Shown here one piece after another: positions 175 through 61,450 of a DNA stretch of 64,000 nt. The stretch is taken from positions 25,642,449 through 25,706,448 of the forward strand of contig OY755241.1 in NCBI GenBank assembly GCA_963576725.1. Reading direction: 5' to 3'. A model generated the notes under the pieces. It did not search any database, was not told the DNA's origin, and saw nothing but the letters and a program-made list of their open reading frames with translations. Position numbers and translations under genes: made by a program. Every line of letters starts with the position of its first letter. The stretch's first letter is position 1. The DNA is from Azorinus chamasolen. Lineage: Eukaryota; Mollusca; Bivalvia; Cardiida; Solecurtidae.

Positions 175-3100
175 CTGAAAATCATGCATTAAACATATTA
201 CTCATGAAGTAAACCTGAAAATTAATATATATTTATTATTAATCCTGGAAACAAATATGAATGTAATTTCTAATCCTGAAGCATTTGAGCTTTGTTACAC
301 AAAAATCAACCTTTAAACTTTCTATACAGTGTACAGATGGGCATATCAACCTTTCAACTTTCTATACAGTGTACAGATGGGCATATTTTCTCAGAAGTCC
401 ATGAATTATTCACATATCTATTTAGATCTATGAAATAAATAGGTTTTCATCATACAGATGTGCATTTTGAATTGGAATACTGATCTAGATCACAAAATAT
501 CATATAGGTCTAAATCCAATCCTAGATCATTACTGTAAAAGTAGAGCTAACAAATTAAAGTGAAGGAAATTTAGCTTGACTTTCGTTGAATATTTCTACT
601 TGCCTAATTTTATTAGAAACAGAGTCTAGATCTGTGCAGATCTAGATTTAGAGTTAGTTTAGGTAATATCCTGGAGTAAATGTAACATCACCTGACAAAC
701 ATAAGAACTGCCGGCCTGTTACATTTCTGGTGTCAGAAGTGATTACTTGGAACCTGGTAGTTCATCTGATTCAACATGGTTTACTATGTTAGCCCATTCT
801 CTCATATTGACGACTTTTAGCACCTCTGTAAAATTCACTTTTTGAAACCATTGTGATAAATAGAGCATTTGCTCCTATAGGAGCAAATGCTCTATTTATC
901 ACAATGGTTTAAAAACTAAAAATTCTAAATTTTTCCTTTTCTCCAGTTAATGCTCCTTTTCAGTAGACTTATTCAAAGAGTTTGGGTCTAAAATAGCCTA
1001 TGAGGTAATGGATTAATGTGCCTTGTTTCCACCCCAGTTGATGAATATTCATGCAAAGCTATTTCCTGTTATATATAGGAGCAAATGCTCTATTTATCAC
1101 AATGGTTTCACAAAGTGACGTTTACAGAATGGGTTAATAACAGAAAATAAAGAAATTCATTGCCATAACAAACAGAAGAGAATCAGATCTATGCCATGTA
1201 AGCAAACAGAGCAGACACAGAAGCTGTCTGATCTGTGTCTACTCTGTTTGCAATGGAGTAAAAGGTCAAAGAAAATACATTCTTGTTTCCAACAGGATCA
1301 GCAAAAAGATGATACCGGTACTTACTTTTGATATGAGGAGTCCCCTAGACCTAGAACAGCATGTTGCATATCACACAAAGAACCTCGAGGTATGTCCTTC
1401 CTCATGATAAACCTCCAAAATTTCTGAAATACAATTTATTTCCTACATATACATGTTACATGTAGTCTGGGATTGAACGTATACACAGAATCTACTGCAA
1501 ACTTTTTAGTACTAGTAAATTGTTTGTATATTTTTTTTTATCTTTTTTAACATAAACACTTTTTCAAACCTTTGTCAATAGAGCAGACCCAGATCAGGGT
1601 CTGCTCTGTTTGATTATGGAATTATAATAGATTCGACAACACAGTTTCTACTGATACCAAAAGATCCTGAGTAGTGTGTACATATGAAAAGTGTGATGAC
1701 ACAACCATGACAGACAGACAGATTGTACACACAGACTGACTGACAAATAATGGAAAATGATGCTTAACCCTTCCCCTCATATACTGTAAATGCTTTTACA
1801 CGAATTTGCTAACAGGGTAGACCCAAATCAGACGGCTCCTATAGGAACCATCTGATCAGGGTCTGCTCTGTTTGCTTTTGACATTATATAGATCTGATTT
1901 CTACAGCTTTTGTCGAAGTAAAATTATTCCCTTGAAAAGTTTACATTATTCATGACTTTATTATTTCTTATGAGTATTGAACAGGAAAAGTGTTATAACA
2001 GGTGACACAAACATTTCCATTTTTGTCACAAACTCCACTAAACCGGGCGTTAAATTAGTATAAATACCGGTCTTAATATCAGCTTAATGCAGGGTGAAAG
2101 TCATGCAGAAAGCTCCTCTAGGAGCTTTCTGCATGACTTTCACCCTGCATTAAGCAGCCACCTGGCTAAGAGTATCTGAATTCTTCTCTTCCGGTTAACT
2201 AGGTGTCTGTTCTGGATCCAAACTGTATGACACTTTGGTTGTTGTACTCCACCTTTAATGGCTTTGCAAACAGAATAGACCAAGGAGCCATCTGATCAGA
2301 GTTAATTAATCAAATTGACATTCATTATTTCTAACATGAATATTCATGATGTAAAAGGTTCCAGAAATGATATAGATGGCATTTTCTCCTTAGAGGAATC
2401 TACATAGCAAGATTAAACCTTTCATATAAATGAATTTTCATGCATTTGCAAACAGAGTAGACCTAGATCAGATGTGCTCTGTTTGCTTATATTAGACCTA
2501 ACTCTACAGTTTCTACCAATACCAAAACGTCATGTGTACATTTTAAGACATTCAGCTAATAAACATTTATGATCTCATGTATATTTAACAGTGAAAGGGT
2601 TTAAGTTAAAAAACTGACCATCATATTGTCTGGTGGGTCTCCCTGACCAGTGGTGGAACAAACAAACACCACTGTCTTCTCTTCTCTCAAATGTGCCTGT
2701 AAATAGTGCAAAAAGAACTAGAAAAAGTACCAAACCTTCTGTGAACTGGAATTGGATCATTCCAGAGCACTAGTTAACCCATTCCCTCATAACCTCTTTG
2801 AATAAATCTACTGAAAAGGAGCATTTACTGGAGAAAATATTTTCAAATTGTGTAGTTTTTAAACCATTGTGATAAGTAGAGCATTTGCTCCTCTGTGACT
2901 TTTACAGAGGCGTTAAAAGGCGTCAGTATGAGGGAATGGGTTGACACTCAAGCACTAAGTGATCAACCCTTTACTTTACATATATACATTTCTATGCACT
3001 TGCAAATACAGTAGACCTAAATCAAGGTCTGCTCTTTTTGCTTTAAAATTGAATAACATAGAGCTGATTCATGGCCAAAAAATATTTTGTTCATATCCAA

Positions 3101-3324
3101 TTATACAACTTCATCTGATTAATATTCATGATGTCATTATTTCTTTTAAAGAGTTAAAAGTAGACAAACTAGTATCATTTCCTCACCCACACATATGAGT
3201 CCATGGCCGTGATAGTTGGTACAAAATGACGTCTTTTAGCCTCTCTGGCCACTTTTTCTGCCACATCCTGAGCTGTCCCTGTTTGACTTCCATACAGAAT
3301 GGTAAGCTGTCGTCTTCCAGTCAT
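76..3324 (-). CDS. NDOR1: NDOR1-like NADPH-dependent diflavin oxidoreductase, first four coding exons (partial gene)
   Basis: Exons 3324-3187, 2696-2619, 1423-1326 and 174-76 join in frame (phases 0, 0, 2, 2) to give 137 residues plus two bases; the gene continues past the left edge. The family (yeast Tah18, human NDOR1) moves electrons from NADPH through FAD and FMN to CIAPIN1/anamorsin in cytosolic iron-sulfur cluster assembly. Visible flavodoxin-domain motifs are the phosphate loop GSQTGTAQD at residues 12-20, the FMN-contact segment [11 protein letters not shown] at about 60-70 and LGLGDSSY at 96-103. The last exon has [16 protein letters not shown] and LADDSHDLG. Spacing between these motifs matches remembered human NDOR1 residue for residue. 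A flavodoxin domain this short that starts directly at the FMN loop, with no membrane anchor, argues against cytochrome P450 reductase, nitric oxide synthase or methionine synthase reductase. The linker, FAD and NADPH domains are outside the window. Confidence 0.93.
175..788. other. NDOR1 intron 3, left part, largely repeat-free
   Basis: No coding exon is seen. A 40-bp direct duplication lies at 305-344 and 345-384 (TATACAGTGTACAGATGGGC in each). CTAGAT motifs recur at 480-650 without a clear repeat structure. Confidence 0.6.
789..1016. mobile_element. TTAA-A palindromic miniature element
   Basis: Defines family A. It has TTAA target sites (left one mutated to TTAG), ends of the type CCCATTCCCTCATA/TATGAGGTAATGG, and a perfect central palindrome at 848-908. 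The hairpin arms read AAACCATTGTGATAAATA then GAGCATTTGCTCC, with apex TATA, followed by the exact complement. Side sequences are GGTCTAAAATAGCC and TTTATTCAAAGAG. There is no coding capacity. The TTAA duplication is typical of piggyBac-type cut-and-paste, so a piggyBac-mobilised MITE is the likeliest class; this is inferred. Confidence 0.88.
1074..1137. mobile_element. TTAA-A half element
   Basis: Only the right half of the family A hairpin (from TATAGGAGCAAATGC) and the outer end GAATGGGTTAA remain. The break is at the apex. Confidence 0.75.
1190..1268. mobile_element. TTAA-B hairpin fragment
   Basis: GCAAACAGAGCAGAC pairs with GTCTACTCTGTTTGC, but the GCTCC core between them is reduced. 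No TTAA ends are visible. Confidence 0.65.
1326..1423 (-). CDS. NDOR1: NDOR1 coding exon 3
   Basis: 98 bp. The acceptor TTTCAG lies at 1429-1424 and the strong donor GTAAGT at 1325-1320. It starts in phase 0 and ends in phase 2. It encodes [10 protein letters not shown] and [10 protein letters not shown], the conserved FMN-binding loop. Confidence 0.93.
1547..1700. mobile_element. Degenerate TTAA-B fragment
   Basis: Contains AGAGCAGACCCAGATCAGGG and the B1 side sequence. The apex is deleted, so the two arms abut. Confidence 0.6.
1764..2000. mobile_element. TTAA-B1 element
   Basis: Starts TTAACCCTTCCCCTCATA. The hairpin at about 1807-1875 has apex GGCTCCTATAGGAACC. The right end (ACAGGAAAAGTGTTATAA) is degraded. 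Confidence 0.7.
2039..2206. mobile_element. TA-D palindromic element, degraded ends
   Basis: Near-perfect palindrome with inner arms TTAATGCAGGGTGAAAGTC and GACTTTCACCCTGCATTAA around AAAGCTCCTCTAGGAGCTTT. The outer ends keep only traces of the pogo-type terminus (AACCGG...CCGGTT). Confidence 0.75.
2252..2350. mobile_element. TTAA-B fragment
   Basis: Begins GGCTTTGCAAACAGAATAGA. The hairpin is truncated, with GGAGCCATCTGATCAG on the 3' arm, followed by remnants of the ATTATTTC side. Confidence 0.55.
2413..2603. mobile_element. TTAA-B1 element, shortened hairpin
   Basis: AACCTTTCATATAAATG at the left, GCAAACAGAGTAGACC and GCTCTGTTTGC hairpin arms without the central core, and a right end at GAAAGGGTTTAA just inside NDOR1 intron 2, 16 bp from exon 2. 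Confidence 0.7.
2619..2696 (-). CDS. NDOR1: NDOR1 coding exon 2
   Basis: 78 bp, 26 codons, phase 0 on both sides. The acceptor is TTTACAG (2703-2697) and the donor GTCAGT (2618-2613). It encodes [10 protein letters not shown] and [13 protein letters not shown], the second FMN-binding segment. Confidence 0.92.
2774..2943. mobile_element. TTAA-A element with half a hairpin
   Basis: Intact TTAACCCATTCCCTCATA start and ATGAGGGAATGGGTT end. The hairpin has only its 5' arm up to GAGCATTTGCTCC; the 3' arm is missing exactly from the apex. Confidence 0.85.
2961..3157. mobile_element. TTAA-B1 element
   Basis: Left ACCCTTTAC end, short hairpin (GCAAATACAGTAGACC with GGTCTGCTCTTTTTGC), side TTAATATTCATGATGTCATT, right end GAGTTAA. 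Confidence 0.65.
3187..3324 (-). CDS. NDOR1: NDOR1 coding exon 1
   Basis: 138 bp, 46 codons from ATG at 3324. The donor GTGAGG is at 3186-3181. The start is placed at the Met five residues before [11 protein letters not shown], where family members begin. An acceptor-like CATACAG lies just upstream, so a 5' untranslated exon farther right is possible. Confidence 0.92.
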
Positions 3325-3447
3325 TCTCCTACTGTATGGAAAAATACATGTATTATACAATAATGCCCTAATTTTAAAGCTTACCATGTGTCACTATTGC
3401 AAATAGACTCTGATGAGATTACAGGTACCCTCACCATGATCCAAAAC

Positions 3448-61186: not shown

Positions 61187-61202
61187 AAGAAACAAACATG
61201 TT

Positions 61203-61450
61203 TTAACCCTTCGCTTGCTATTCGCGTCAATTTACCTATCTGTAAATAGTGAAGACCCAGATGAGACAGCTCCTGCAGGAGCTGTCTCATCAGGGTCTGC
61301 ACTATTTACAAATTGATTGTGCAACCAGTGCACTCCGCAGCAATCATTGCACAGTGAAATACTTGTACACAGTGAAAATATATGTAATTATACAACAGGG
61401 CATGGGTAAATAAGGAGACATGTATTTTAAAATTCAGGTTAAAGGGTTAA
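61203..61450. mobile_element. TTAA-H element
   Basis: TTAACCCTTCGCTTGCTATT to CAGGTTAAAGGGTTAA. Hairpin core CAGCTCCTGCAGGAGCTG. Confidence 0.9.

Follow-up and report, generated by a model that had tools for sequence, protein, structure and literature searches.

Why do palindromic elements with different stems carry one and the same sequence at the tip of the hairpin? The window analysed here (the whole stretch of DNA, 64 kb of a 1.72-Gb bivalve genome) contains 33 exact copies of the 14-bp dyad GCTCCTNNAGGAGC, against none in 100 dinucleotide shuffles, and 88 matches with at most two mismatches, some of them inside tandem arrays, against 0.97 expected. Genome-wide the exact dyad occurs 389,419 times, compared with 58 copies of a reversed-pattern control that is lenient because it contains CpG. 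Among dyads of the form 6-NN-6 in a 314-kb sample that takes in the repeat-rich window, GCTCCTNNAGGAGC was the commonest, with 75 copies, followed by TATATA (35), ATATAT (33) and CATGAA (19). The sample also yielded 182 near-palindromes, and the apex of 113 lies within two mismatches of the core; a first-pass annotation had all five of its families end in this apex, and among hairpins at large it crowns most, the remainder having other tips. The hairpins number in the hundreds of thousands, and at least two kinds of jumping DNA share the tip sequence, which hints at some use of the common tip to these parasitic elements.

We assigned all 33 exact cores in the window to a known stem (the better arm matching at 23 or more of 28 bases): 13 to B, nine to A, eight to D and three to H, and the consensus core is identical in A, B, H, D1, D2 and D3. 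The first-pass annotation described five otherwise unrelated families; the shared tip and the differing target stood, but the unrelated stems are three, B, H and I forming one stem family with 22-23 of 28 bases in common. The A, B/H/I and D groups could not be aligned with one another, and a search for hidden homology among their stems gave no significant result in 21 pairs, except A with D2 (p = 0.04). A and B/H/I elements are about 229-255 bp long, with a TTAA target and TTAACCC..GGGTTAA ends; D elements are about 208 bp long and pogo-like, with a TA target and consensus ends TACAGTAAAACC..GGTTTTACTGTA, whose CAGT..ACTG termini we take to be pogo-type. Copies of these families occupy 75.7 of the 314 kb, about one quarter of the sample, window included.

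A-type elements lie at 58417-58645 (+ strand; 229 bp long, with an exact core at 58499-58512 and 89 bp between the near end and the hairpin centre), 52814-53042 (+; exact core 52896-52909) and 3843-4076 (-), the last inserted into a D2 element at the inner TTAA of D, where its flanks share one TTAA and continue as D2, showing TTAA to be the duplicated target. This demonstration concerns A only, and B/H/I were assigned by their TTAACCC..GGGTTAA frame. B-type elements occupy 48424-48665 (+; exact core 48490-48503, its hairpin centred 73 bp in from the near end), 53777-54033 (-; exact core 53954-53967) and 46200-46455 (+; exact core 46266-46279, with a CATGAATATTCATG dyad adjoining the far end), and H-type elements, of the B stem family, 61203-61450 (+; exact core 61269-61282) and 35977-36226 (+; exact core 36043-36056). 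Family I, credited earlier with the same core, does have a B/H-like stem in a TTAA element (33210-33420, -), but its core at 33339-33352 has one mismatch. A D2 element of the form TA-CAGT..ACTG-TA (39770-39977, +; exact core 39867-39880) interrupts an arm of a B-type element and bears out the claim that D, unlike the other families, targets TA. D3 hairpins lie at 49360-49453 (+; exact core 49400-49413), 10914-11017 (+; exact core 10959-10972) and 23714-23817 (+; exact core 23759-23772), and a D1 hairpin at 35768-35857 (+; exact core 35806-35819). We found the hairpin in 37 of 46 candidates with TTAACC..GGTTAA ends, these ends being themselves the search criterion; its position is near-fixed in B/H-type candidates, with 73.0 bp from centre to TTAA end in 18 of them, and varies in A, at 78-93 bp from the end.

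The first-pass annotation proposed to check whether conservation is higher in the core than in the adjacent stem. Within families the core is not measurably better kept than the stem and decay looks neutral, so that its retention must be due to copying lineages alone, and few independent lineages carry the case. The families differ in age, hairpin divergence being about 5% in A and H, 6% in D2, 12% in D1 and 15-16% in B and D3, and a tip common to families of different age counts in favour of a recognition site. Complementary double changes exceeded permutation in B (145 vs 70.5), D3 (46 vs 22.8) and H (8 vs 1.2), indicating that palindromy is kept as stems change from one subfamily to another; D1, D2 and A gave no clear excess over permutation. 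An A.A mismatch in the B-type stem, retained in 34 of the 40 hairpins oriented, speaks against arm-to-arm conversion as the means by which the palindrome is maintained.

Our best reading, held with a little less than even confidence and drawn from sequence patterns, is that the 14-bp dyad may be a recognition site acting in cis, which unrelated miniature non-coding transposons have retained or passed between them. The dyad, which crowns a long palindrome in two TTAA-target stem families (A; B/H/I) and one TA-target pogo-like family (D), would be required during copying, either by a putative protein dimer (a transposase or a host factor) or by a step acting on the extruded hairpin. Source lineages with the tip would spread, their inserted copies would then decay without selection, and the sharing of the tip could reflect either convergent retention or an exchange of tips. 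That the tip is read at all, and that its being read helps mobilisation, is our inference; selection of the core for binding, extrusion or cleavage is our preferred, unproven direction. A shared, exchangeable tip would be a concrete, testable candidate for a cis-determinant that lets non-coding elements from different superfamilies become so numerous, and families that rely on one factor could be studied on it as a test case.

This form of the tip is not obligatory, as GCCGAGTNACTCGGC occurs on the same B-type stem, with 32,354 exact copies in the genome. At least three recurring tips other than GCTCCTNNAGGAGC, with GCCGAGTNACTCGGC among them, were found on the B-type stem, differing in length and sequence, which indicates that stems and tips assort independently; an alternative tip, GCCGCATTATGCGGC, lies at 10376-10390 (no strand assigned). 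These other tips, the 73-bp spacing and the kept mismatch are new here. It is conceivable, if on the doubtful side, that the tips form a small interchangeable code set (GCTCCTNNAGGAGC, GCCGAGTNACTCGGC, GCCGCATNATGCGGC, GCCGCCTTNNNAAGGCGGC) set on stems of unrelated superfamilies, in which case one factor would serve, and perhaps amplify, TTAA-type and TA-type elements alike.

The tip might instead have arisen once and then, as a functionless passenger, have been copied from one palindrome to another when templates switched or hairpins underwent gene conversion. This is unlikely, though it deserves weight: families nest in each other (as at 3843-4076 and 39770-39977), bringing their hairpins next to one another, and B and D agree beyond the core, in a longer CAGANN-core-NNTCTG form. 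This form has 172,607 genome copies, which we also count in favour of a recognition site, and its CAGA/TCTG extension is missing in A, which we count against one. However, the two bases flanking the core differ, mostly CG and TG in B vs AA and AC in D, while the blocks on either side agree, a pattern that a single copied tract would not produce unless it changed later, and no D stem was found in a TTAA element among the D-motif matches listed.

A role of the hairpin as RNA, with transcripts whose long duplexes either supply small-RNA pathways or conceal the element, seems improbable to us. The DNA folds of four hairpins have z of -11.5 to -15.1 and a 242-bp B element gave weak matches to miRNA precursors, the best at E 6e-5 and 34 bits vs a gathering score of 98, but any long hairpin might give such matches, two tRNA matches were the only known RNAs in the window at gathering scores, and an RNA stem does not account for one fixed tip on unrelated stems. 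The histone stem-loop, which slightly resembles the tip, scored 14.1 vs 34. We give equally little credence to the tip as a by-product of palindrome creation or repair, favoured by self-priming or hairpin-end processing. The variability of the B-type tips would fit such an origin, as would the window's five arrays of core-like units, of which only that at 59276-59595 lies between two B-type arms, the remaining four having a B-type arm on one side as judged by eye; but other palindrome families in the same 314 kb have quite different apexes (TGAGCCNNNGGCTCA, CGTCTCNNNGAGACG).

The first-pass annotation offered another version, in which the core is in every case part of a TTAA module and D is a pogo palindrome that captured a TTAA hairpin. 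TTAA was said to bound the hairpin in every D copy, and it does so on both sides in seven of the eight exact-core window copies, the copy at 26898 having ATAA on one side; D's TTAA can also serve as a target. In D2-D4, however, the inner TTAA belongs to D's own internal terminal-repeat copy, a duplicate of the subterminal portion of its pogo-type terminal repeat (15 of 22 bases in D4, with 0 of 5000 shuffles as good; p = 0.014 in D3, 0.010 in D2, 0.057 in 20 unclassified copies and a non-significant 0.21 in D1), and the TTAA-bounded segment does not start with CCC, unlike TTAA elements. Coreless joined arms, AGGTGGYNGCTTAAGCNRCCACCT, occur at 11 genome sites, all asymmetric, nine with the D1 or D3 asymmetry and none perfectly palindromic, so that this "empty" form is a rare product of the kind expected from deletion. 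Since TTAA elements insert at D's TTAA, D is a target and not a derivative, and we consider capture very improbable.

AGANNGCTCCTNNAGGAGCNNTCT had four matches outside this genome in a prokaryote genome collection and two in viral contigs (one shared sequence), and these stems were at none of them. In the open-access literature we found no paper on the core (searched in one spelling), on palindromic piggyBac MITEs of bivalves, on cruciform piggyBac MITEs with TTAA, or on a conserved motif in subterminal palindromic MITE hairpins; "palindrom" and "hairpin" occur zero times in the accessible portions of PMC10294476 and PMC8905726.

Among known systems, bacterial REP/IS200-type hairpins are high-copy, keep a mismatch and are read as DNA structure; the resemblance would be one of working only, across another domain of life and enzyme class. 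Satovic and Plohl reportedly described, in 2013, MITEs that carry tandem repeats in the clam Donax trunculus, and by description alone these are similar, being clam miniatures with tandem arrays; some of the arrays found here adjoin B-type arms. The piggyBac superfamily is defined by short inverted ends beginning CCC. A, B, H and I resemble piggyBac-type miniatures in such ends and in TTAA duplication (seen in the A nested in D2), and differ in their 68-70-bp internal palindrome, its shared tip and its near-fixed distance from one end. Of 110 matches to the piggyBac transposase PF13843, the five regions read (3.0-3.8 kb) held no matching end pair and no core hairpin, though ends may lie further out. 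D, in turn, resembles Tc1/mariner-pogo (Tigger) miniatures in its TA target (seen in the D2 nested in B) and CAGT..ACTG ends; unlike them, it is a palindrome over its whole length, has an inner copy of its terminal repeat and shares its tip with the TTAA elements.

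The hairpin core, GCTCCTNNAGGAGC, occurs in 33 exact copies in the 64-kb window and in none of the shuffles, and genome-wide (1.72 Gb in 137 contigs) in 389,419 copies; its reversed pattern, a lenient control because it contains CpG, has 58. In a 314-kb sample, made up of the window and 25 stretches of 10 kb, it ranks first among 6-NN-6 dyads with 75 copies, followed by TATATA (35), ATATAT (33) and CATGAA (19). The 250 kb of this sample outside the window hold 42 exact cores; family densities in the sample lean high because the window was chosen for its repeats. As an outside baseline, AGANNGCTCCTNNAGGAGCNNTCT gave 4 matches across the entire prokaryote collection.

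The first-pass annotation saw one apex shared by five unrelated families. The shared apex stands; the five families reduce to three stems, recognized among 84 distinct exact-core copies in the sample listing. Read outward from the core, the A stem is AAATGCTCTATTTATCACAATGGTTTC and the stem common to B, H and I starts NNTCTSATCAGGGTCTGC; these elements start TTAACCC, finish GGGTTAA, and are about 229 (A) and 250 bp (B/H/I) long. D elements (subtypes D1-D4) have the form TA-CAGTAAAACC..GGTTTTACTG-TA, span 208-212 bp, and carry the core near their middle, at 104-105 bp from the left and 104-108 bp from the right end. Stems agree at 22-23 of 28 bases among B, H and I and at 20-24 of 28 among D1-D3; ungapped comparison between groups revealed no similarity clearly above shuffles (p 0.04-0.66). 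The consensus core is identical across A, B, H, D1, D2 and D3, while their stems differ. Models searched with nhmmer found 466 non-overlapping copies in the 314 kb, totalling 75.7 kb: B 267, D3 57, A 56, D1 28, H 24, D2 22, and 12 of G, a family with a GCCG tip.

By chance alone, three unrelated stems would share an identical six-base half-tip with a probability of about 6 in 10^8 (4^-12). B and D have CAGA/TCTG in common as well, at equal spacing. Either A, B and D therefore depend on something that reads the tip, or the tip has been passed between them. On evidence from one genome we tentatively prefer a read site, at somewhat short of even chances; passive transfer between families we regard as somewhat less likely. 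As a read site, the symmetric tip with its free 2-bp centre, followed by NN-TCTG in B and D, would suit a dimer; alternatively, recognition may take place on the extruded hairpin.

A third possibility, raised in the first-pass annotation, was that D is a pogo palindrome that captured a TTAA hairpin. The D inner arm reads outward ACCTGCATTAAGCAACCACC and the D4 terminal repeat inward ACCTGTCTTAAGCGGCCATC, matching at 15 of 22 bases in D4 (6 copies), a fit that 0 of 5000 shuffles equalled; matches were weaker in D3 (p=0.014, 17 copies) and, with a gap, in D2 (p=0.010, 13 copies), absent in D1 (p=0.21, 13 copies), and at p=0.057 in 20 unclassified D copies. A looser local search on longer arms was mixed, with a best same-sense p of 0.03 in D3 and no significance in D1 or D2. 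The inner TTAA of D2-D4 therefore sits within an internal copy of D's own terminal repeat, and the capture reading is not supported. D arms joined without the core (AGGTGGYNGCTTAAGCNRCCACCT) do exist: the genome has 11 such sites, compared with 172,607 of CAGA-core-TCTG (in a listing of 100 that spans only the opening 2.1 Mb of a single contig, about 45 look D-type by eye). All 11 depart from perfect palindromy, and 9 keep, by eye, the asymmetry of D1 or D3. Allowing up to 8 mismatches, a search of 354.8 kb yielded 25 matches; inspected by eye, these are halves of D, hairpins of B and the junction of a nested insertion, with one weak candidate that has 7 mismatches at position 268 of a further stretch (L029). 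The sample contains 107 D copies.

Frequent arm-to-arm conversion is argued against by kept mismatches in the B-type stem. One, at a distance of ten base pairs from the core, was counted in hairpins whose near TTAA end was recognized upstream, the others being left unoriented: it is A.A in 34 of 40 GCTCCT-class hairpins (otherwise A.T 3, T.T 1, A.C 1, G.T 1) and in 5 of 8 of the GCCG class (T.A 3), mirrored as T.T on the opposite strand (34/40 and 4/7). Another position that stays unpaired lies 17 bp outward, with T-G in B but A-G in H.

The expectation that the core would be more conserved than the adjoining stem failed within families. Core identity against that of the 8 stem bases flanking it on either side, in copies spanning the hairpin with CpG excluded, was 0.924/0.953 in A (n=41), 0.844/0.889 in B (n=174), 0.836/0.859 in D1 (n=23), 0.942/0.946 in D2 (n=18) and 0.861/0.897 in D3 (53 rows, some copies being counted twice in an alignment of 67 rows for 57 copies); the core led only in H, by 0.004 (0.942/0.938, n=19). 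The G tip stood at 0.764 vs 0.929 for its stem (n=12). Pairing tends to survive stem changes: against 300 permutations, complementary double changes numbered 145 vs 70.5 (max 92) in B, 46 vs 22.8 (max 35) in D3 and 8 vs 1.2 (max 5) in H, those of B and D3 being mostly old shared changes rather than independent events because both contain subfamilies. Counts lay inside the permuted range in A (4 vs 1.5, max 4), D2 (4 vs 1.3, max 5) and D1 (8 vs 7.0, max 13).

Judged from sequence, tips are exchangeable on the B-type stem. A sample scan for this stem with no core requirement gave 151 partly overlapping matches, with tips within 2 mismatches of the core in 87, half-cores in 10 and others, chance matches included, in 54; among these others GCCGAGTNACTCGGC, GCCGCATNATGCGGC and GCCGCCTTNNNAAGGCGGC recur, the first in 32,354 exact genome copies vs 2 for its reversed control. 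The A stem carried a core or half-core, the latter often one base shorter, in 33 of 35 matches. D1/D3 stems had the core in 25 of 66 matches (half-core 6) and D2 stems in 13 of 50 (half-core 5), with no second recurring tip seen among them; the remainder look like mostly chance fits to short flanks.

CATGAANNTTCATG, a second frequent dyad, lies at 46428-46441 and at 18 more places in the 314 kb; several B-type elements carry it some 10 bp from their far TTAA end. Tandem arrays with core-like dyads in their units occupy 20890-21018, 24820-24988, 31313-31489, 58865-59151 and 59276-59595; two B-type arms, complementary over 15 bp, enclose the last, and each of the other four has, by eye, a B-type arm on one side. 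Other palindrome families with unrelated apexes (e.g. CTCGCCAAGGCTCGC, CGTCTCNNNGAGACG, TGAGCCNNNGGCTCA) lie at 27568-27721, 19790-19933, 27825-27923 and 21641, and in further stretches of the genome (L011, L020-L022, L029). The window also holds an uninterrupted TRPV5-like channel frame of 939 codons (41830-44649, minus strand), closest among named relatives to the clams Mercenaria mercenaria (58% identity) and Mya arenaria (53%), which identifies the host as a bivalve; a tRNA-Thr(TGT) (5718-5791, plus strand) whose 3' part is tandemly duplicated at 5764-5879; a weak tRNA match (5153-5225, minus strand); and long arrays of 157- and 138-bp units (16473-18375) with 14-bp arrays on either side (16160-16426 and 18419-18605).

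Nested insertions reveal the target sites. The A element at 3843-4076 splits a D2 at an inner TTAA of the latter, its flanks having one TTAA in common and continuing as D2, and the D2 at 39770-39977 is inserted at TA within a B-type element, in its left arm; A therefore duplicates TTAA and D duplicates TA. The sample yields 46 TTAACC..GGTTAA candidates 150-450 bp long. A hairpin (at least 17 of 22 pairs) is present in 37 of them, tipped by GCTCCT or a near variant in 34 (one being the nested D2) and by GCCG in 3. Measured from the near TTAA, starting at its first T, the distance to the hairpin centre is 73.0 bp in 18 candidates, every one of B or H type (17 belong to the 37, and one is weaker), 74.5 bp in the 3 GCCG-tip candidates and 75 in I, with B-type exceptions at 62 (stretch L031) and 74 (L021, weak). 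In A it is less fixed: 88.5-89 in 7, 87.5, 93, 78-79 in 3 shorter and 138-140 in two long candidates.

The genome contains 110 piggyBac-transposase matches. In five piggyBac regions of 3.0-3.8 kb we found neither a TTAACCC..GGGTTAA pair around the gene nor a core hairpin; two (L036, L038) have scattered AACCCT or AAAGGGTT motifs, and in the stretch L035 two B-type hairpins lacking the core adjoin a piggyBac gene. It is by target site and ends only that A, B and H are provisionally assigned to piggyBac.
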